Below are positions 2,933-18,714 of a DNA stretch of 43,243 nucleotides, one piece after another. The stretch is from Bacteroidales bacterium. Lineage in GTDB: Bacteria; Bacteroidota; Bacteroidia; Bacteroidales; JAHJDW01. Every line of letters starts with the position of its first letter. Positions within the stretch are counted from its first letter, which is position 1. Under the pieces are notes generated by a model. That model worked only from the letters and a program-made list of their open reading frames with translations. It had not been told where the DNA came from and searched no databases. The position numbers were made by a program, and so were the translations under genes. The stretch covers positions 1 through 43,243 of the forward strand of contig JAQUPB010000006.1 of NCBI GenBank assembly GCA_029004185.1, written 5' to 3'.

Positions 2933-5788
2933 ATGAGAAAAATATACATTCTTTTCGCTGCAATACTAATTCTGCTTTATGCAATTAATGCAACTTCTCA
3001 GACATCAAATAAAATAACTCCTGAATTATTACGGCAGATGCTCGCATTCAAATCCGGTGAAAAAATTTCCTGTCTTGTTCAGATGAAAACAACCTACCCA
3101 TACGAAAGTGTGAGAAATAATTCTGTAAAAAGCAAGATAGAAACATTCAGGAAAATCGCGAAAACGAGTCAGGAAAAAATTCTTGCATTGCTTAGGAGCA
3201 TGCCGCCGGAAAAAGCAGAAGTAAAACAAACTTACTGGGTTATGAATGGTTTTCATTTAATTGCAACTGCCGATGTAATAAATGAAATGGCAAAAAGAGA
3301 TGATGTTGAGAAAATTTTCGATGATGAAATAGTAACGCTGCCTCCCGAAGAAGCTGATGCCACAAAAACAGCACCAAGCAGAGCAGTAGAATGGAATATT
3401 CTGAAAATTGAAGCCGACAAATGCTGGGATGCAGGATATACGGGACAGGGAATTGTAATCGGAATTCTCGATACAGGTGTTGAATATACACATCCTGCAC
3501 TGACAAACAAATGGGCGGGTTACTGGCATGTTGCCCAAGGCTTCCCGCAACAGGCAACACCTTATGATGATAACGACCATGGTACGCATTGCATGGGAAC
3601 AATACTCGGCGGAGATGGAAGAGGTTCGGGTACAAATGATATTGGCGTTGCTCCCGACGCAAAATTCGTGGCTGCAAAAATTTTAGGTTCAAATGGTTCG
3701 GGCTCGAGCAACCAGATTATAGAAGGCATGCAATTCATGGCTGACACAAAAGCACTAATTGATATTAAAGCAATATCGAATTCATGGACAAGCAACTCGG
3801 GAGGAACCTACTATGTTGCCGCCTGCCGCACTCTTGATTCGCTTGGAATTTATTCCGTTTTTGCAACCGGAAATAGCGGACCAAATGCAAGTACAGCTGG
3901 CGCACCTGCTGATTACCCAAATGAAATGGGCATCGGAAATACTGATGATCAGGACGACATAAATAACTCATCTTCACGTGGTCCATCAACAAATAGTAAA
4001 CCTCCATATAATGACCTAAGTCAATGGATAAGGGCTGACTGGAACTATATTAAACCCAACATATCTGCTCCCGGAACAAATATTAATTCGGCAAAACCGG
4101 GCGGTACATACTGGCAGATGACCGGAACATCAATGGCTACACCTCATGTATGCGGTGCTGTTGCTTTGTTATGTCAAAAAAATCCCGTTTTAACAAGAAC
4201 AAATATTTATAATTTACTGGTTGATAATGTTGACCTTCCATCACAAGGCGCGCCTTACCCAAACAATGATTACGGATGGGGACGATTAAACGTTTGGAAA
4301 GCACTTCAGGCAACTCCGACTGCAAATATGCCTTGGGTGGCAATGCTATCAAGAAATGTTGACGTTGTTACAGCTGGACAAACAGGAAATGCAATATTCA
4401 CAATAAAAAATATCGGTGGTTCCGACGCAAATAATACAACCGTGAAATTAATTTCAAAAGATATTTATATTATAGTGAATCTTGGAAATCAGAATTTCGG
4501 AACGTTGGCTTCAACACAATCTGCAAATAATAATTCGACACCGTTTACATTCACTGCACATCAGTTAACACCTGCCGGTCATGTTGCAAATATGATTTTT
4601 ATTGTTCATGCCGACGGAACTCCCAAAAATTATGACGATACCATTGAGTTTACGCTGACTATCGGAACCGCTCCTCCTCCTTTCCCGATTTATTCCGATG
4701 ATTTCGAATATGTAGGCGGTGCCGACAGTTTTCCCCAATACTGGACTGTTACGGGAAACTGGAGCCGCATTACAGCCAATTCACATTCCGCAACTCACTC
4801 TTCATACAGCGGAGCTATAACAGGAGGTACAACCGTTACAACATATCTCACATTAAAAAATGCCATGGATTTATCAAAATACACAAGTGCATATATTGAT
4901 TTCTGGCATTCTTTTGATTTTGATGCCGATTTTACTGCAACCGCGACAATGGAAACATCTACCAATGGCGGCACAAACTGGGTATCTGTCTGGAATTCCT
5001 CACTAAGCGGCAGTAATAAGACAATACCATGGACAAAGGATAGCGCATCAATAATTTCACTGAGTAATAATTTTAAAGTAAGATATGTCTTATCTGCCAA
5101 TGCATTTTTTGTAAAGAAAGCCGACTGGTGGATTGATGACTTTGAAATAAAAGTACCAAGCGATGTTGAACCTCCTTATTTTGATAATACTACAATTTGG
5201 GTTGACACACCATACACTGGTCCTTTTATCGTAAAATCAGATGTTACCGATGATAACGGAGTTGATAGTGTTCGCCTTTATTATAAAATTAACGGAGGAA
5301 GCTGGAATCAGCTTGCAATGGCAAAGACGACAGGAAACACTTATCAGGCAACAATTCCCGCACAAGGTATAAACGATTCAATAAAATATTATCTCTGGGC
5401 AAAAGATAAATGGGCTCAGCCAAACAAAGGAACTGTGCCAGTTGGCGCCATACAAACCACCGATTATTTTAAATTTAAAATAATTTATGTTAACACTCCC
5501 GAAAAACAAAAACTTGTAAACGAAATAATTGTTTATCCTAATCCATCAAATAATTATATTGATACATATATTGATGTACTGAAAAAATCAAAACTCGAAA
5601 TTTCTTTCTACGATTTAACAGGCAGAAAAATTGAAACAATTATAAACAAAGAAGTGGATTCGGGTTATTATCAATTCAGATTTAATGAAGATAATAATAT
5701 TAAACCGGGTGTCTATTTTATTCATATTAGTTGCACTGATGGTTTAAACAACACATTTAAAACTGTTAAGAAAATTATAATTCTGTAA
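2933..5788 (+). CDS. Secreted S8 subtilisin-like protease with T9SS sorting tail (copy 1)
   Basis: A 951-residue extracellular serine protease. Residues 1-22 form a signal peptide, and about 44-135 look like an I9-type propeptide that must be removed for activity. The catalytic domain spans about 165-460: Asp180 in ILDTGVEYTHP, His216 in DHGTHC, oxyanion-hole Asn314 in ATGNSGP, and Ser400 in GTSMATPHVCG. Beyond it are a CARDB-like beta domain (about 475-580), a jelly-roll-like module beginning YSDDFEYVGG, and an Ig-like module beginning PPYFDNTT. The last 90 residues are a Por_Secre_tail (VYPNPSNNY... GRKIET... KPGVYFI... VKKIIIL), which in Bacteroidota directs export by the type IX secretion system. 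It is the first of three tandem paralogues and is closest by eye to copy 3. The substrate is unknown. Confidence 0.93.
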   Translation: MRKIYILFAAILILLYAINATSQTSNKITPELLRQMLAFKSGEKISCLVQMKTTYPYESVRNNSVKSKIETFRKIAKTSQEKILALLRSMPPEKAEVKQTYWVMNGFHLIATADVINEMAKRDDVEKIFDDEIVTLPPEEADATKTAPSRAVEWNILKIEADKCWDAGYTGQGIVIGILDTGVEYTHPALTNKWAGYWHVAQGFPQQATPYDDNDHGTHCMGTILGGDGRGSGTNDIGVAPDAKFVAAKILGSNGSGSSNQIIEGMQFMADTKALIDIKAISNSWTSNSGGTYYVAACRTLDSLGIYSVFATGNSGPNASTAGAPADYPNEMGIGNTDDQDDINNSSSRGPSTNSKPPYNDLSQWIRADWNYIKPNISAPGTNINSAKPGGTYWQMTGTSMATPHVCGAVALLCQKNPVLTRTNIYNLLVDNVDLPSQGAPYPNNDYGWGRLNVWKALQATPTANMPWVAMLSRNVDVVTAGQTGNAIFTIKNIGGSDANNTTVKLISKDIYIIVNLGNQNFGTLASTQSANNNSTPFTFTAHQLTPAGHVANMIFIVHADGTPKNYDDTIEFTLTIGTAPPPFPIYSDDFEYVGGADSFPQYWTVTGNWSRITANSHSATHSSYSGAITGGTTVTTYLTLKNAMDLSKYTSAYIDFWHSFDFDADFTATATMETSTNGGTNWVSVWNSSLSGSNKTIPWTKDSASIISLSNNFKVRYVLSANAFFVKKADWWIDDFEIKVPSDVEPPYFDNTTIWVDTPYTGPFIVKSDVTDDNGVDSVRLYYKINGGSWNQLAMAKTTGNTYQATIPAQGINDSIKYYLWAKDKWAQPNKGTVPVGAIQTTDYFKFKIIYVNTPEKQKLVNEIIVYPNPSNNYIDTYIDVLKKSKLEISFYDLTGRKIETIINKEVDSGYYQFRFNEDNNIKPGVYFIHISCTDGLNNTFKTVKKIIIL

Positions 5789-5910
5789 TTTCAAGCAGAT
5801 TTAAATTTCTCCACCCTATCAATGAAAGTGGAAAATACTATTTCAAGAAAAGACCTAAGAAAGAAATTTAAAAACACGGCATTAATTTGTCAATATTGAA
5901 CAATTTGGTA

Positions 5911-5940
5911 TTGCTTTATTGCAAAATAGTTTTTATCTTG
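5911..5940 (+). promoter_or_regulatory. Possible promoter for the second subtilase
   Basis: TTG (5911-5913), 20 nt, then TATCTTG (5934-5940) approximates the Bacteroidetes consensus and lies about 50 bases upstream of the ATG at 5991. It suggests that copy 2 can be transcribed independently of copy 1. Confidence 0.35.
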
Positions 5941-5990
5941 CAGGTGAAAAATCACCAATTTTATTTTTTATTATCTAAATTTTATAAAGT

Positions 5991-8855
5991 ATGAAAAAAA
6001 TAAACTTTCTCATTTGTGTTGCATTAATATTTGCTAATGCAAATTTATTTTCCCAGAATAACATTACATCAAGCAATAAAATTACGGGCGAATTGCTGAA
6101 ACAAATGCAGACTTTACAAGCAACTCAGAAGATTTCATGTGTGGTGCAGATGAAAAATGCTCTTCCGTTTGAAAGCACAAAGAGCAGTTCCGTAAAAGAA
6201 AAGATTGAAATATACCGCAAAGCTGCTGAAGAAAGCCAGAAAAAAATTCTTGAGTATCTTCATCAAATGCCTGAAGGAAAAGCCGAGATTCAGCAAAAAT
6301 ACTGGATAATAAACGGTTTTCATCTTATGGCAACTGCAGATGTTATTAGCGATATTGTTCAAAGAGAAGATGTAAAAGTTATTTCTGAAGATGTGATTGT
6401 ATCATTGCCGCCAAACGAAACTGCTGTTGCCGATGCAACAAAGACAATCAAAAGCAGGGCGGTGGAGTGGAATATAACAAAGGTTAAAGCCGATCAGTGC
6501 TGGGATGCAGGATATACCGGAAAAGGAGTTATTATTGGAATACTTGATACAGGTGTTGATTACACACACCCGGCTCTTGTCGGTAAATGGACAGGATACT
6601 GGCATGTTTCTCAGGGATTTTCGCAATCACCAACACCATACGATGATAACAATCACGGAACACATTGCTGTGGAATAATTCTCGGAGGCGACGGCAGAGG
6701 TACATTTGCAGAAGATATAGGTGTTGCTCCTGATGCAAGATTTGTTCCCGTGAAAATTTTAAGCGGTTCCGGCTGGGGAACAGGCACACAGATTCTTGAA
6801 GGTATGCAGTACATTGCAGACCTGAAAGCTACTGTTGATGTAAAAGCAATTTCAAATTCGTGGTACAGCAGTCACGAAGCAATATATTTTTTCGATGCCG
6901 CAAAAGCAATCACCGACATAGGTATTCTTTCAATATATTGCAACGGGAATACCGGTCCAGGAACCGAAACAGTTGGTTCGCCTGCCGATTATCCAAATAC
7001 AATAGGTGTTGGAAATACTGATAATACTGATGACATCAACTCTTCTTCTTCGCGTGGTCCGGCTCCCAGTAACCCTCCATATAATACCACAAGCTACTGG
7101 TTAAGGGGCGACTGGAGTTATATAAAACCAAATATTTCTGCACCGGGAACTGACATCAACTCGGCAAAACCTGGCGGTACATACTGGCAAATGACAGGAA
7201 CTTCAATGGCAACACCTCATGTTTGCGGTGCTGCTGCTGTTCTTTTCCAGAAAAATTATAACCTCACACAACAGCAGGTTTATACTTTGCTTATTGACAA
7301 CTCTGATCATCCGGCACAGGGCGCACCTTATCCAAACAATAACTACGGATGGGGACGACTTAATGTTTATAACTCATTACAGGCTACAACTCCAGGCGGC
7401 AGCGGAGGTCCTCATATTGCAATTGCTTCACAAAATATTGATAACGTAACTGCTGGTCAGACCGGAAATCTTACTTTAAGCGTTATTAATCTTGGCGGAA
7501 CTGGAAGTAATACAACTGTTAAATTTATTTCCAACGATAATTACATAAAAGTAAATTCGGGTTCTCAGAATTTTGGAACACTTACAAATAATCAAACAGC
7601 AAACAATAATTCAACACCGTTTTCTTTCACCGCTCATGCACTCACTCCTGCTTATCATCAGGCATCGCTTTCTGTTATTCTGCATGCCGACGGGAGTCCT
7701 AATTACAACGATACAATTACTTTCAGTATTATTATAGGTACAATGCCTTCACCGGTTCCTTTTTATTCCGATGACTTCGAATACATAGGAACCGATAGTT
7801 TTCCTTTATTATGGACAACTAACAAATACTGGAGCAGGATAAATTCAAAATCTCATTCAACATCACACTGTTCCTACAGCGGAGCAGTGTTTGAAGGCAA
7901 TTCATACCTTACATTTGCAAACGGTGTTGATTTATCAAAATATATGGCAATTGCAATTGACTTCTGGCACAGTTACGACATAGGTTTTTCGGGTAATGCC
8001 GGCAACCTTCATGTTGAGATTTCTGAAGACGGAGGAACTAACTGGGCGGATTTATGGTCGGATGATCTGCTCACTAATCTGCAAATACCGTGGACACATA
8101 TAACTACGCCTACTATTAATTCTCAAAGTAAAAATTTTAAGATGAGATTTGATTTGAATATCGTTAATGCAACAGGTGTTACAAAAACCGACTGGTGGGT
8201 TGATGATATAGTAATTTCGGCTGTAAAAAATAATGAACCTCCATATTTTACAAATACAACTGTTTGGCCCGATACTATATTTACGGGTCCTTTCCCCGTT
8301 AATTCAGATATTACAGATGGCAACGGAGTGAAAACAACATCTTTCCATTACAGGGTGAATGGCGGCGGCTGGAATCAGATTGCATTGCCAAAACTTACAG
8401 GAAAAACTTATCAGGCAACTATTCCCGCCCAGAATCTGAATGACATTATTGATTATTATCTTTGGGCAGAAGACAGTGTGAACCCTGCAAATGCAGGAAC
8501 CGCACCGATAGGAGCAATTCAGGCAACGGAATATTACACTTTTAAAATATGGAATCCTTTAAATGTTAGTACTTATAATCCCATAAACAATATATCTGTT
8601 TACCCGAACCCTGCAACATCAGAAATAACAATCAATGTAAACATTTCTCAAAAATCGGATTTGAATATTGATGTTTATGATATTACCGGAAGAAAAATCG
8701 AAACGGTTGTAAATAAAAATAATGTTTCAGGAAATCAAATTGTAAAATTCAACAATGATAAACATCTCGAACCGGGAGTTTATTATTTTAAAATAATTTG
8801 TAAAGGCAGTGAAAACAATGTTTATGAAATGATTAAGAAAGTTGTTGTTTTGTAA
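5991..8855 (+). CDS. Secreted S8 subtilisin-like protease with T9SS sorting tail (copy 2)
   Basis: A 954-residue paralogue of the preceding gene with the same order of parts: signal peptide (1-21), propeptide (about 48-138), catalytic domain, CARDB-like domain, YSDDFEYIG jelly-roll-like module, PPYFTNTT Ig-like module, and T9SS tail (VYPNPATSE... GRKIET... EPGVYYFK). The triad is intact: Asp186 (ILDTGVDYTHP), His222 (NHGTHC), Ser405 (GTSMATPHVCG), with Asn320 as the oxyanion residue. It is the most divergent copy. After the catalytic domain it has TPGGSGGPH where copies 1 and 3 have TPTANMPWV, and its jelly-roll module differs more. It is separated from copy 1 by 202 bases and from copy 3 by only 48, so copies 2 and 3 are probably co-transcribed. 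Confidence 0.93.
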   Translation: MKKINFLICVALIFANANLFSQNNITSSNKITGELLKQMQTLQATQKISCVVQMKNALPFESTKSSSVKEKIEIYRKAAEESQKKILEYLHQMPEGKAEIQQKYWIINGFHLMATADVISDIVQREDVKVISEDVIVSLPPNETAVADATKTIKSRAVEWNITKVKADQCWDAGYTGKGVIIGILDTGVDYTHPALVGKWTGYWHVSQGFSQSPTPYDDNNHGTHCCGIILGGDGRGTFAEDIGVAPDARFVPVKILSGSGWGTGTQILEGMQYIADLKATVDVKAISNSWYSSHEAIYFFDAAKAITDIGILSIYCNGNTGPGTETVGSPADYPNTIGVGNTDNTDDINSSSSRGPAPSNPPYNTTSYWLRGDWSYIKPNISAPGTDINSAKPGGTYWQMTGTSMATPHVCGAAAVLFQKNYNLTQQQVYTLLIDNSDHPAQGAPYPNNNYGWGRLNVYNSLQATTPGGSGGPHIAIASQNIDNVTAGQTGNLTLSVINLGGTGSNTTVKFISNDNYIKVNSGSQNFGTLTNNQTANNNSTPFSFTAHALTPAYHQASLSVILHADGSPNYNDTITFSIIIGTMPSPVPFYSDDFEYIGTDSFPLLWTTNKYWSRINSKSHSTSHCSYSGAVFEGNSYLTFANGVDLSKYMAIAIDFWHSYDIGFSGNAGNLHVEISEDGGTNWADLWSDDLLTNLQIPWTHITTPTINSQSKNFKMRFDLNIVNATGVTKTDWWVDDIVISAVKNNEPPYFTNTTVWPDTIFTGPFPVNSDITDGNGVKTTSFHYRVNGGGWNQIALPKLTGKTYQATIPAQNLNDIIDYYLWAEDSVNPANAGTAPIGAIQATEYYTFKIWNPLNVSTYNPINNISVYPNPATSEITINVNISQKSDLNIDVYDITGRKIETVVNKNNVSGNQIVKFNNDKHLEPGVYYFKIICKGSENNVYEMIKKVVVL

Positions 8856-8858
8856 AAA

Positions 8859-8875
8859 GCCACGAATGCACGAAT
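8859..8875. repeat. Half-palindrome word (gccacgaatgcacgaat)
   Basis: A 17-base word containing the tandem cacgaat unit, located in the 48-base spacer between protease copies 2 and 3. It resembles one arm of the larger intergenic palindromes listed elsewhere (for example near 42105), but I see no matching opposite arm here. Confidence 0.4.
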
Positions 8876-8903
8876 AAAACAATTCAATCTTTAAATCTTT
8901 TTT

Positions 8904-11765
8904 ATGAAAAAAATAAAAATTTACGCAGCATTAATGTTTTTGGTTTTTTCAGGTTTCACAGTTTATTCACAAGAACAAAAACAAGGAACTGAAAAAATAA
9001 AACAGGAATTACTGAGGCAAATACAATCTTCAAAACCTGATGTTAAAATCTCCTGCATTGTTGAGATGAAAGCCACTTATCCGTACGAAAGTGTAAAAAG
9101 CCGTTCGGTACAAAATAAAATCGAAACTTTCAGGAACATTGCAAAAACGAGTCAGGAATCTGTTTTAACATGGCTGAGGAGTTTACCGATAGAAAAAGCC
9201 GAAGTAAAACAATTATACTGGGTGATGAACGGTTTTCATCTGTTGGCAACTGCCGACATAATAAAAACTTTGTCGGAAAGGGATGACATAAAAGTAATAT
9301 ATGAAGATGCGATTATTGTTGCCGATGGTGAAATTTTAAAAAACGATGCAACAAAAACAGTTCCCAGCAGGGCTGTTGAATGGAATGTATTAAAAATAGG
9401 TGCGGACAAATGCTGGGATGCAGGATATACAGGGCAGAACGTAATAATCGGAATTCTTGATACAGGCGTGGATTATACTCATCCTGCATTGTCAAGTCAA
9501 TACAGCGGATACTGGCATGTTGCGGCAGGTCTGCCCCAACAGGCTACCCCATATGATGATCATGGGCACGGTACACATTGTGCGGGTTCAATTCTTGGCG
9601 GCGACGGCAGAGGTCCTTTTGCTTATGACATCGGTATTGCACCCAATGCAAAATATGTAGCTGTTAAAATATTAGATTCGCAAATGGCAGGCTCAGGCTC
9701 GGATATTAACGAAGGATTGCAGTATATTGTTGACCTGAAAGCTACCGTTGACATTAAAGCTATTTCTAATTCATGGTGCAGCAAACCTCCGAACGATAAC
9801 TGGTTCACTATTTGCAACACATTCAAATCTCTCGGTATTATTGCAATTTTTGCTAACGGAAACTGGGGACCGGGACCGAGTACAGAAGCTTCTCCGGCTG
9901 ATTATCCTCATACAATCGGTGTCGGAATGGTTGATATAAATGATGATATAAATGACATGTCTTCACGTGGTCCTGCTCCAAATACAAGTCCGTGGAATGA
10001 CCAATCATACTGGTTTACTCCCGACTGGAATTATATAAAACCAAATATTTCGGCTCCCGGCGTGAATATTAATTCTGCCAAACCCGGTGGAACTTATCAG
10101 ACAATGGGCGGAACTTCAATGGCAACACCACAAGTTTGCGGTGCTGCGGCTCTTCTTTATTCGAAAAATCCTACATTAACAACGAAACAGGTTTACGACC
10201 TTTTGATTAATAACGTTGATTTACCTCCGCAGGGCGCACCTTATCCCAACAACAACTATGGATGGGGACGGCTTAATGTGTGGAAGGCGCTTCAGCATAC
10301 ACCTACTGCCAATATGCCATGGGTATATATATTATCAAAAACCGTTGATGCCGTAACAGCCGGACAAACTGGAAATGCAACCGTTAATGTAAAAAATGTC
10401 GGTGGTTCAAATGCAAATAATACAACGGTAAAATTAATTTCAAATGACAATTTTGTAAAAATAAATGATGGCATAAGAAATTTCGGTTTATTAACCGTAA
10501 ATCAAACTGCCGATAATGTTTCCAATCCCTTTACTTTTACGGCACATTCGCTGACTCCTGCCGGACATGTTGCAAACATGATGCTTGTAACCCATGCAGA
10601 TGGAAGTCCTGCAAATTATGATGATACCATAAGATTTACAATTACTATAGGAACAGCTCCTAATCCCGTTCCTGTCTTTTCCGACGATTTTGAATATGTA
10701 GGCGGAGCAGACAGTTTCCCTCAATACTGGACCGCAACGGGAAACTGGAGTCGCATTACCAGCAAATCACATTCTGCAACTCATTCGGCATACAGTGGTG
10801 CATCAAAGGATGGAGATGCAATTCTTACACTTAAAAATGCAGTTGACTTATCGAAATATCCACAGGTATTTATAAAATTCTGGAATTCTTATGATTTTAT
10901 AACGGAACAAATGGTAACTGTGGGATTTGAAAAATCCACAAACGGAGGTTCAAATTGGGAGCCATTGTGGGACCCGGGTTTAACAAGTACCAATCTTCAG
11001 GCACCATGGGCAGAGGTAACCAAAACAGTTTCACAGCCGGGAAACAGTTTTAAAGTAAGATGTAAAATAAATATCGGCAATTCTCTTTTTGTAACCAAAG
11101 CCGATTTGTGGATTGATGATTTTTCAATCAACATACCAAAAGATAATGAACCACCTTATTTCACAAATACTACTGTTTGGCATGACACTCTGTATACAGG
11201 TCCTTTTTTAGTAAAATCAGATATTACTGATGCAAGTACTTTGAATAATACATATCTTTATTACAGGGTAAACGGCGCCAGCTGGAATCAGCTTGCATTG
11301 CCAAAGCAAAGCGGAAACACTTATCAGGCAACAATTCCATCACAAAGCTTAAACGACAGCATTGAATATTATTTATGGGCGGATGATAAATGGACTCCTG
11401 CAAATGCAGGAACTGACCCGGTAAGCGCAATACAGTCAACCGAATATTTTAAATTCAAAATTACAAATGCTACTTCGGTTAACAACGGTAAACTTGTTGA
11501 TGATTTTATAATTTATCCTATTCCGTCAAATTCTTATGTTGAAGTATATGCAAATGTTTTACGAAAATCAAAACTTGAAATTTCAGTTTTTGATATTGCA
11601 GGAAGAAAAATTGAAACGGTAATTGAAAATAATGTAAATCCGGGTTATTATCAGTACAGGTGGAACGAAGATGGCAAAGTGAAATCAGGTGTTTATTTTA
11701 TAAATATAAAATGCTCTGATAATAATACTACTTTTAACTCAATAAAGAAGGTTGTAATATTATAA
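8904..11765 (+). CDS. Secreted S8 subtilisin-like protease with T9SS sorting tail (copy 3)
   Basis: A 953-residue paralogue with signal peptide (1-22), propeptide (about 49-138), S8 domain with Asp186 (ILDTGVDYTHP), His222 (GHGTHCAG), Asn320 (FANGNWGPG) and Ser405 (GTSMATPQVCG), CARDB-like domain, FSDDFEYVGG jelly-roll-like module, PPYFTNTT Ig-like module, and a T9SS tail (IYPIPSNSY... GRKIET... KSGVYFI... KKVVIL). The tail has IYPIPS where the usual motif is YPNP, a mild deviation. It shares long near-identical stretches with copy 1 in the propeptide and jelly-roll module, suggesting a more recent duplication or gene conversion between 1 and 3. It converges with murB, 14 bases apart. Confidence 0.93.
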   Translation: MKKIKIYAALMFLVFSGFTVYSQEQKQGTEKIKQELLRQIQSSKPDVKISCIVEMKATYPYESVKSRSVQNKIETFRNIAKTSQESVLTWLRSLPIEKAEVKQLYWVMNGFHLLATADIIKTLSERDDIKVIYEDAIIVADGEILKNDATKTVPSRAVEWNVLKIGADKCWDAGYTGQNVIIGILDTGVDYTHPALSSQYSGYWHVAAGLPQQATPYDDHGHGTHCAGSILGGDGRGPFAYDIGIAPNAKYVAVKILDSQMAGSGSDINEGLQYIVDLKATVDIKAISNSWCSKPPNDNWFTICNTFKSLGIIAIFANGNWGPGPSTEASPADYPHTIGVGMVDINDDINDMSSRGPAPNTSPWNDQSYWFTPDWNYIKPNISAPGVNINSAKPGGTYQTMGGTSMATPQVCGAAALLYSKNPTLTTKQVYDLLINNVDLPPQGAPYPNNNYGWGRLNVWKALQHTPTANMPWVYILSKTVDAVTAGQTGNATVNVKNVGGSNANNTTVKLISNDNFVKINDGIRNFGLLTVNQTADNVSNPFTFTAHSLTPAGHVANMMLVTHADGSPANYDDTIRFTITIGTAPNPVPVFSDDFEYVGGADSFPQYWTATGNWSRITSKSHSATHSAYSGASKDGDAILTLKNAVDLSKYPQVFIKFWNSYDFITEQMVTVGFEKSTNGGSNWEPLWDPGLTSTNLQAPWAEVTKTVSQPGNSFKVRCKINIGNSLFVTKADLWIDDFSINIPKDNEPPYFTNTTVWHDTLYTGPFLVKSDITDASTLNNTYLYYRVNGASWNQLALPKQSGNTYQATIPSQSLNDSIEYYLWADDKWTPANAGTDPVSAIQSTEYFKFKITNATSVNNGKLVDDFIIYPIPSNSYVEVYANVLRKSKLEISVFDIAGRKIETVIENNVNPGYYQYRWNEDGKVKSGVYFINIKCSDNNTTFNSIKKVVIL

Positions 11766-15599: not shown

Positions 15600-15654
15600 G
15601 CCACAGATTCACAGATTAAAAAATTACTGTTTTATAAATCTGTGAATCTGTGGC
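15600..15654. repeat. Perfect inverted repeat, 18-bp arms (ccacagattcacagatt)
   Basis: GCCACAGATTCACAGATT (15600-15617) is perfectly complementary to 15637-15654 across a 19-base loop. Each arm is itself a near-tandem repeat of CACAGATT. It lies between the epimerase promoter region and the stop of the MbnP-like gene. It could act as a transcription terminator for that gene, but the sequence style matches the other intergenic palindromes. Confidence 0.75.
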
Positions 15655-15680: not shown

Positions 15681-16478
15681 TTAATGAATATACCCAAGAG
15701 AAAATGCGTTTTTGCCATTTTGTGCAATTTTGTTCATTGCTTCCTGATTTTCCATTATATCGCCTCCGTAGTAATTCCAATCAAAAATATAAACACCTTC
15801 AAACCATTTTTCAACATTCATTATTATCTGAATTTCTTTAGTTTGATTTTTTGAAATTGAAAATGAAGAGTTAGGTATGCTAACCTTGAAATAATTTTGA
15901 ATAAATGTAGTGTTGCCTCCTGTAGTATCTTTTCCGATTCCAAGGTGGCATCTGAAATTCTGAATATTCAGAGATGCATCTTTCCATTTTCCATTGAGCA
16001 TCATATAATGGTAGCCGCCGCCAAGTATTTCAGGCCAAGCCATGTTTGATTCGGGAGGATTAACAAACATAAACGACTTGTTTTTTTCCTGTGTTATGCC
16101 GAAAACAAAATTTATCGAATCGTAATCTCCGGCAGGAATATCATCGTACACATTCCATGTTAAAGTTGAGGAAATATCAATATCAACGTAAAATATTTCC
16201 ACCCAATCGTTAATTATTTTTTTTGTTCCGTCATTTTTATAAAGTGTAAGTTCTGAAATAAAATATTTTAATTCATCCACCTCATAAGTATTTGCAGCAG
16301 CATTAACATATTTTAATGTGTCTTTCTCCATCAGCTGTCCGTTAATGTAATGAGCAAATTTTAAAACTATCTTTCCGTTTTCAGGAGTAGGAATTGGTTT
16401 TTCTTTATGGCAGGAAGCATAAATAAATAATAATAAAATCAGAGAAATTAAAATCGGTTTATCTGCTTTTATTATCAT
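15681..16478 (-). CDS. MbnP-like copper-associated lipoprotein
   Basis: A 265-residue protein of the MbnP family, named for the methanobactin-associated copper protein. It shows the family-typical ELKYFISELTLY, DSINFVFGI, MAWPEILGGGYHYMMLNG and RCHLGIG motifs. Residues 1-22 form a lipoprotein signal ending ASC (Cys23), so it is predicted to be membrane-anchored. The frame could be read 12 residues further upstream, but those codons fall at the intergenic palindrome at 16492-16565, so I place the start at the ATG at 16478. It lies directly downstream of an OprC-like copper receptor gene on the same strand. In methanotrophs MbnP works with the dihaem protein MbnH, and no MbnH gene is in this window. 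Copper binding here is inferred from family and neighbour. Confidence 0.8.
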   Translation of the reverse strand: MIIKADKPILISLILLLFIYASCHKEKPIPTPENGKIVLKFAHYINGQLMEKDTLKYVNAAANTYEVDELKYFISELTLYKNDGTKKIINDWVEIFYVDIDISSTLTWNVYDDIPAGDYDSINFVFGITQEKNKSFMFVNPPESNMAWPEILGGGYHYMMLNGKWKDASLNIQNFRCHLGIGKDTTGGNTTFIQNYFKVSIPNSSFSISKNQTKEIQIIMNVEKWFEGVYIFDWNYYGGDIMENQEAMNKIAQNGKNAFSLGYIH

Positions 16479-16491
16479 GATTATTTTTCTT

Positions 16492-16565
16492 GCCACTAAG
16501 ACACAAGGACACAAAGGTACACAAAGTTTTCTTTGTGATACTTGGAGTCTTCGTGTCTTTGTGGC
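16492..16565. repeat. Large imperfect inverted repeat, 35-nt arms
   Basis: Arms 16492-16526 and 16531-16565 pair at 27 of 35 positions around a TTTT loop. The arms are built of repeated words such as GACACAAGGACACAAAGG and begin and end GCCAC...GTGGC, as does the palindrome at 15600. It lies between the TonB receptor and MbnP-like genes, so in an operon it would form a strong hairpin in the message. Confidence 0.75.
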
Positions 16566-16614
16566 ATTTTTGTTTTATGACTATATAATTGAACTTATAA
16601 AAAAATATCTATTT

Positions 16615-18714
16615 CTAAATGTTTATTAAAAGGTTTGCAAAAACAACTCTTCCTGGTTCAAATAATCTATATGTACTTCCTACAATTCGCCTGTTCAAAT
16701 GCTCGTAATATGCCATATTGAAAATATTATTTACACCGGCAGAAAGATTAATATTTTTATTGCATTTATAGATTAAAACAAAATTTGCAAGCACAAAACA
16801 TGGAGTTCTTCTTTCGTAATATGCTTTTGAAACATAGTCCTGCTCTGCAATCACGCGCATACCTGCTTTTGGAATAAGTTTATTTTTAAATAATTTATAT
16901 GAAATATTTATTGTTGATTCAAGCGGAGGAATTTCAGGCAGCGCATCTTTTTCCAAAGTAGTTTTGCTGATTACCTGGGTTCCCGAATAATTATATCTCA
17001 CAACTTCTTTCATTGCTGCAATCGTTCTGTATGCAGTTAATTCCACACCAAATTTGCAGGAATCGGGAGAGTTATAACCGAATTCAAAACCTTTAAAAAC
17101 CGCAAAATCAGCATTTGTAAATTGCTTTACTCCAATTGCTGTCATTGTTTGTATCGGTGCAACAGACGGTGCAAGAATAGTTCCCGTAATATAATTCTGA
17201 ATATAAGAACAGAAAATATTGAAATATGCACTACCTACTTTATTAGATTTATACTTCAACGTAAAATCAGCTTCATTATTTGTTTCAGGCTTTAACTGCG
17301 GGTTTCCGAGATAATCATAATTGTCGTAACCAACAGTCAGGAACTTGATATATCTTTCGAGCATGTTCGGACTTCTTGTTCCCCTGCCGATAGCTATTCC
17401 TGCAATCAGGTTTTCTGTTATTTCTTTATTCACGCATAAATTCATGCTGAAATTGAAATAACCGGATTTTGTATCACCGAAATAAACATTGCCTGATTTT
17501 ATAATATTTAAAGTATCATCGGAATTTGCCATGTTATAATCGCATCGCACTGCCATAACGAAATAAGTACTTTTGTATTCGCTGTATATTCCGTAATTCT
17601 GAATAACCGCATTATTCCAAAGATTCATTATCGTCTGGTTATCCATCATACTATTTATCATTCTCATTGTTCTTTCACCGTCTTTCCTTATATTTTCATA
17701 GTTCACACCCAGAGCCATATTGTTTTTTCCGGCTTTGAAATTCAATTCCCCTCTTCCACCCGTATTTATTGCATTAACATCGGCATACATTCTCATAATT
17801 GACGAATATGGCGAAACAATGGAATTAAAATTCCGCCTTTCACTGTTATCCATTATATGTGTAACATTGGAATTATAAATTTTAAATTCTGCTGAATTTA
17901 TTTTATCAGACACATCTTTAATATTGTAATCTATTGCCATTATTCTTGTATTATCTTCGAGTTCATCCATCGGCAATGCAGGATACATCATTTCCATAGA
18001 ATGAATTTCTTTGTATGTAAGGATAATATTCTGATTTGATTTTGGAGCAATGCCAACTTTAGCTGAATAATTATATTTGCTGAATGAAGAATTTACAGTA
18101 TCTCCGTTACCATCTTTGTAATTACCATAATTTCTGAAGCCACCGGTTATGTGGTAAAATATTTTTTTTCCGCCGCCGTATAAACTCAATTGTTCCCTGT
18201 ATCCATTCCAGTTGCTTTCATAACCGGTAAATAACTTAACATGGATTTGATTTTTATCAAATGGCCGTGGTTTCTCGCTAATAAGATTAACAACACCTCC
18301 CATTGCAGGTCCGTATTTTAAAGCAAAAGGTCCTTTTATGATTTCTATTTTTTCAATTTCTTCGGCTTCGATGCGCGATGTAGTCGGGTCCATCCTGTTG
18401 GGACAGCCGCCTTCAATTTTTATTCCGTCATCAATCTGAGTATTGATTTGATTTGCTCTGAATCCCCTTACAATAGGGTCGATTGATGTTCCGCCTTTTC
18501 TCACTCCCGACACATTAGGAACAGAACGAAGATAATCACCCATGTCGCGTATAGCAATATTTTTTAGTTCCTCGTTTTTGATTTCATTCTTTATAAAAGA
18601 AACGTTCTTGTCTTTTATTTCAACTTGGTTAAGATTCACAGTGTCCTTGATGGATTGTGAAAAGATACAAATCGGAATAAATGATAAAATAATTGAGATT
18701 ATTGTATTTTTCAT
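16615..18714 (-). CDS. TonB-dependent copper receptor, OprC/NosA-like
   Basis: A 699-residue outer-membrane receptor with signal peptide (1-20), plug domain (about 45-150) and beta-barrel ending in a hydrophobic LLINI. In the plug, GGCPNRMDPTTSR contains C104xxxM108, and the barrel contains H238xM240 in EIHSMEMMYPALPM. The pair CxxxM plus HxM is the copper site described for Pseudomonas OprC, and the surrounding CPNRMDP is typical of that family. Extra methionines around 240-249 strengthen the metal reading. It probably imports copper with TonB energy. The next gene is an MbnP-like lipoprotein. I see no carboxypeptidase-like N-terminal domain and no SusD partner, so a carbohydrate role is unlikely. 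Confidence 0.88.
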   Translation of the reverse strand: MKNTIISIILSFIPICIFSQSIKDTVNLNQVEIKDKNVSFIKNEIKNEELKNIAIRDMGDYLRSVPNVSGVRKGGTSIDPIVRGFRANQINTQIDDGIKIEGGCPNRMDPTTSRIEAEEIEKIEIIKGPFALKYGPAMGGVVNLISEKPRPFDKNQIHVKLFTGYESNWNGYREQLSLYGGGKKIFYHITGGFRNYGNYKDGNGDTVNSSFSKYNYSAKVGIAPKSNQNIILTYKEIHSMEMMYPALPMDELEDNTRIMAIDYNIKDVSDKINSAEFKIYNSNVTHIMDNSERRNFNSIVSPYSSIMRMYADVNAINTGGRGELNFKAGKNNMALGVNYENIRKDGERTMRMINSMMDNQTIMNLWNNAVIQNYGIYSEYKSTYFVMAVRCDYNMANSDDTLNIIKSGNVYFGDTKSGYFNFSMNLCVNKEITENLIAGIAIGRGTRSPNMLERYIKFLTVGYDNYDYLGNPQLKPETNNEADFTLKYKSNKVGSAYFNIFCSYIQNYITGTILAPSVAPIQTMTAIGVKQFTNADFAVFKGFEFGYNSPDSCKFGVELTAYRTIAAMKEVVRYNYSGTQVISKTTLEKDALPEIPPLESTINISYKLFKNKLIPKAGMRVIAEQDYVSKAYYERRTPCFVLANFVLIYKCNKNINLSAGVNNIFNMAYYEHLNRRIVGSTYRLFEPGRVVFANLLINI

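Follow-up and report, generated by a model that had tools for sequence, protein, structure and literature searches.

Does a receptor gene followed by a gene for an MbnP-like lipoprotein form a copper uptake system of its own, or is it part of a larger system that also needs the di-haem enzyme MbnH? MbnP and MbnH are established partners, with a role that is unclear outside methanobactin loci. The question was raised by a two-gene locus of a Bacteroidales bacterium (GCA_029004185.1, contig JAQUPB010000006.1; genome 94% complete), which lies in the window analysed here, that is, the whole stretch of DNA covering positions 1-43,243. A sequence-only reading of this stretch had described the locus as an OprC-like receptor plus an adjacent MbnP-family lipoprotein, and had proposed that the two form a minimal copper uptake system without MbnH.

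The receptor gene and its predicted copper site

Both genes of the pair were real open reading frames (ORFs) with the expected Pfam domains. The receptor gene (16615-18714, minus strand) encodes a 699-aa OprC-like TonB-dependent receptor with Pfam plug and barrel domains, and mbnP follows it on that strand at a distance of 136 bp. The mbnP ORF, counted from a TTG at 16514, spans 15681-16514; the probable start is the ATG at 16478, which gives a 265-aa lipoprotein (15681-16478, minus strand) with its lipobox cysteine at C23. The intergenic region contains a long imperfect hairpin (16490-16566, not assigned to a strand), and RNA folding of 16479-16614 yielded −38.4 kcal/mol with a z of −6.85. 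A second strong hairpin-forming inverted repeat (z −9.9) was located at 15600-15654, just past the 3′ side of mbnP, and both inverted repeats are possibly dispersed repeat elements. At 2933-11765 the window also carries three consecutive paralogous ORFs of ~950 aa each, which share 63-78% DNA identity over long blocks and resemble subtilisin-type proteases.

Comparison with solved structures bore out the OprC-like character of the receptor. Its closest PDB sequence match was OprC (6fok, 2.1e-40), and the AlphaFold2 model (pLDDT 86.5) combined a barrel and a plug with OprC as the nearest fold, the best 28 Foldseek matches in the PDB all being OprC at a TM of ~0.8. The copper site of OprC has been described as a CxxxM-HxM arrangement (PMC8610252), and both halves were present in the receptor. 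The plug half corresponds to the CPNRM motif (18391-18405, minus strand), in which C104 and M108 aligned with C143 and M147 of OprC, and the barrel half to the HIM of HIMDN (17851-17859, minus strand), in which H286 and M288 aligned with H323 and M325. All four residues were identical in 34 of the 34 aligned receptors, which were drawn from MbnP loci. Judging from the OprC alignment and the overall fold of the model, the four ligands would converge in one site. The sequence-only reading had identified C104 and M108 correctly and had misplaced the second half at H238 and M240, a candidate that we rejected because the OprC residues align to H286 and M288 and because H238 and M240 are not conserved: H238 was found in 9 of the 34 receptors and M240 solely in that of the window. 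The methionine richness it had pointed out was present (26 Met in the receptor), but few of these residues are kept across receptors: besides the ligands, only M249 (34/34), M451 (29/34) and M352 (22/34) were widely conserved.

The receptor is thus like OprC/NosA of Pseudomonas, a TonB-dependent transporter of ionic copper, in its fold and in all four ligands of the copper site, but shares ~22% identity with it in the structural alignment, and in Bacteroidales it is genetically linked to MbnP. Its score of 241.6 bits against the TonB-copper equivalog TIGR01778 fell under the cut-off of 472.45, a point that we counted against our preferred reading. The low score would also suit a receptor that imports another substrate and adjoins mbnP incidentally, as would the MbnP loci that lack a receptor or have one of a different type. 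Two observations speak against such a receptor, namely the invariance of the four copper ligands in the 34 receptors and the finding that, of the seven strongest receptors of the window's type in a set of 60 relatives, five adjoin MbnP; we consider another substrate very unlikely.

The MbnP lipoprotein and its conserved residues

Assignment of the downstream gene to the MbnP family was upheld by a PF20243 match of 89.8 bits (2.6e-25; cut-off 27) and by the predicted fold. Apart from the six chains of 7L6G, the MbnP of Methylosinus trichosporium (Foldseek E 2e-8 to 2e-7), nothing in the PDB matched the fold of the model (pLDDT 94.8) significantly. The model aligned with 7L6G over 214 residues at a VIA Z of 16.5 and an rmsd of 3.5, the next match having a Z of 7.6. 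Profile sequence searches against the PDB recovered no MbnP, and the fold comparison alone did so. No MbnP relative was found among viral contigs.

Six residues, C23, M146, W148, H157, H178 and M242, were conserved across 56 aligned MbnP relatives. The lipobox C23 (16410-16412, minus strand) was retained in 55 of the 56 sequences, while W148 (16035-16037, minus strand) and the two candidate copper ligands H157 and H178 (15945-16010, minus strand) were each present in all 56; H178 also matched a conserved His of classical MbnPs in the alignment. W148 aligned with the MYWSWN motif of classical Bacteroidota MbnP, which in turn aligns with MAWNW of 7L6G, and thereby with the first Trp of the WxW motif, the second Trp being absent in the MbnP clade of the window. 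The score of 25.8 bits against TIGR04052 (MbnP_like_WxW), under the cut-off of 140, fits this loss, and the degenerate motif makes a changed copper site possible in the clade. Both the score and the missing Trp were counted against the preferred reading.

In the methanotroph protein CorA, the copper site consists of two His and a kynurenine, and the MauG-like partner CorB is co-transcribed (PMC3912023). The locus described here is comparable to CorA/CorB and to MopE/SACCP of methanotrophs only in its likely way of working, with a surface or periplasmic copper protein and a MauG-like di-haem partner. CorA and MopE were absent from the significant sequence and Foldseek matches, and we do not claim membership in the CorA/MopE family.

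MbnH in the genome and among relatives

The claim that the system lacks MbnH was accurate at the locus, where no gene in the window adjoining the pair encodes it, but not for the genome. The single CCP_MauG protein of this genome, encoded on a separate contig (C32:9985-11082), was a lipoprotein of 365 aa that contains CxxCH twice, which places an MbnH-type di-haem enzyme in the same genome as the pair. Its best PDB match was 6e1c, the solved MbnH (1.5e-48), and it matched TIGR04039 at 2.6e-66 with 224 bits, under the cut-off of 362.85, which also weighed against our reading. Among 91 stretches compared, contig C32 had the tetranucleotide profile closest to that of the window (r 0.99; for two 20-kb sections of the window the value was 0.98), which assigns mbnH, so far as this can be judged, to the organism from which the window derives. 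A gene for a sigma-54 response regulator comes after MbnH both on this contig (L018:8706-9872) and in a relative of the same family in which the operon is complete (L030:11752-12927). MbnB of methanobactin synthesis was not found in the 94% complete genome (no PF05114 match), in line with the earlier statement that no methanobactin gene is present.

The three genes stood side by side in several relatives. The order receptor-MbnP-MbnH was observed at L027, L032 and L030, the last from the window's family, and the order MbnP-MbnH at L019, L020, L021 and L033. We then counted 80 further MbnP loci, which had been chosen as those matching the window's family best and so are not a random sample, and which included four duplicates of loci from the 60 relatives: 28 had receptor-MbnP-MbnH, 16 had receptor-MbnP without MbnH (plus 5 cut by contig ends) and 9 had MbnP-MbnH (plus 3 with a short upstream side), the remainder having neither arrangement or being cut. 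Adjacency of receptor and MbnP, a survey of which the sequence-only reading had suggested, proved widely conserved in Bacteroidales, both with and without MbnH. Some receptor-MbnP-MbnH operons carry a small lipoprotein-like ORF of 118-122 aa between receptor and MbnP (L030:9335-9703 and L027:6644-7000), which matched PF05423 weakly in L027 and not in L030, and which is missing from the window's pair.

Genome content pointed to a close association of the two proteins. In the 60 relatives, an MbnH-type enzyme was encoded by 15 of 15 genomes with MbnP and by 2 of 45 without it (Fisher p 2.6e-12), as scored by a profile made from operonic MbnHs that gave 328-726 bits for MbnH-type proteins, except for one fragment of 157 aa at 255, and no more than 111 for ordinary peroxidases. 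In a phylum sample of 247 genomes, all 67 with MbnP had a TIGR04039 match, compared to 49 of 180 without MbnP, by a looser criterion (E ≤ 1e-30) that admits other peroxidases too; an MbnH-family match was located no more than 3 kb away from 71 of the 86 MbnP genes in this sample. One genome (G049) encoded an OprC-like receptor and two MbnH-type genes, with no MbnP detected.

A maximum-likelihood tree was built from 92 MbnPs, with a bootstrap that had not fully settled. It placed the MbnP of the window within a clade of 39 rows (support 98/93), none of which had an adjacent MbnH. A receptor was adjacent in 18 of these rows and in 4 more that were cut downstream, 15 had neither neighbour, and 2 were cut upstream. 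The 39 rows represent 37 genomes, and 36 of these, including the genome of the window, encoded MbnH elsewhere, in one case as a fragment; G078 was the sole genome of the clade in which MbnH was not found. The detached mbnH stood alone in most of the inspected genomes, and in at least five genomes it adjoined a second MbnP. In one subclade (L214-L219, L223 and L224), its position was fixed, next to a pair of housekeeping genes resembling ispE and ung. Distances in the MbnP and MbnH trees correlated (Spearman Mantel 0.69 overall and 0.68 among detached pairs, p 0.001), a congruence that may partly reflect shared species history. The simplest history would be that mbnH separated long ago from the receptor gene and mbnP and was not lost.

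These counts bear on the two-gene proposal that the pair imports copper without MbnH, in which case the MbnP of this clade would bind the metal by its His residues alone. The complete lack of adjacent MbnH in the 39 rows, with the receptor kept adjacent in at least 22 of them, the room that the degenerate WxW leaves for a changed copper site, and the one genome with no MbnH all agree with it. The missing MbnH of G078 may, however, be due to an incomplete assembly, W148 is still invariant, and MbnH is rare in relatives that have no MbnP. Above all, an MbnH gene elsewhere in the genome regularly accompanied this MbnP clade, the very outcome that the sequence-only reading had listed as refuting its proposal, and related loci carry receptor, MbnP and MbnH in a row. 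With MbnH in 36 of the 37 genomes, the claim of a minimal system fails, and we consider self-sufficiency of the pair quite unlikely.

A putative three-protein copper system

The explanation that we prefer, and regard as probable, is that an OprC-like copper importer and an MbnP acceptor depend on MbnH supplied in trans, which would make the system a dispersed form of a partnership already known. This explanation draws on the identity of the protein families and the conservation of the ligands, on the adjacent genes, on an almost obligate joint occurrence with MbnH and on the operons of relatives, all established by sequence comparison and structural modelling. The pair would then provide the import part of a copper system with three proteins, the third of which, MbnH, has its gene at a separate place in the genome. 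By analogy to OprC, copper would be the substrate of the receptor, taken up as ionic copper through the site formed by C104 and M108 of the plug and H286 and M288 of the barrel. The receptor may pass copper to the lipid-anchored MbnP, which would accept or hold it. The di-haem lipoprotein encoded on C32 would mature MbnP, most likely by oxidising the conserved Trp, for which W148 is the candidate, to kynurenine within the copper site.

The MbnP/MbnH pair is known far beyond methanobactin producers and sometimes occurs near MbnT-like receptors (PMC3621798). Compared to this pair as previously defined (TIGR04052/TIGR04039; 7L6G, 6E1C), the system shares the MbnP fold, an MbnH-type di-haem lipoprotein in the genome and, in relatives, the adjacency of the genes. 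It differs in that mbnP and mbnH are not linked in the window's genome, the receptor found with them is OprC-like and not MbnT-like, the WxW motif has no second Trp, no MbnB was found, and the scores lie below the equivalog cut-offs.

Haem-copper oxidase is the commonest copper client, and its subunit I, COX1 (PF00115), had no match in the 94% complete genome; the usual client thus appears absent, which we counted against the preferred reading. This absence favours a role in copper defence or scavenging instead of nutrition, in which receptor and MbnP would lower copper toxicity at the outer membrane or supply a non-respiratory cuproenzyme. However, the annotated neighbouring ORFs included no recognised gene for efflux or for a copper oxidase, and OprC-type receptors as well as CorA/CorB are copper-repressed and tied to acquisition (PMC8610252, PMC3912023), so that we hold defence or scavenging to be unlikely.

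Returning to copper import dependent on MbnH in trans, a broader formulation can be offered tentatively. Bacteroidales may widely possess a methanobactin-independent copper acquisition system composed of an OprC-type importer of ionic copper and an MbnP acceptor matured by the di-haem MbnH. In one old clade, MbnH would have come to lie outside the operon and to act in trans, sometimes serving two MbnP copies, and the copper site would be changed, with one conserved Trp instead of WxW. What is new is the combination of an OprC-type receptor with MbnP/MbnH and, in one clade, the placement of MbnH in trans; it is a variant of the known pair. A literature search that covered few subscription journals returned no paper on MbnP/MbnH with OprC in Bacteroidota. 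The link to a receptor with the OprC copper site gives MbnP/MbnH a testable place in a pathway, that of chalkophore-free import of ionic copper in Bacteroidota, and the detached clade provides a natural test of MbnH action in trans.
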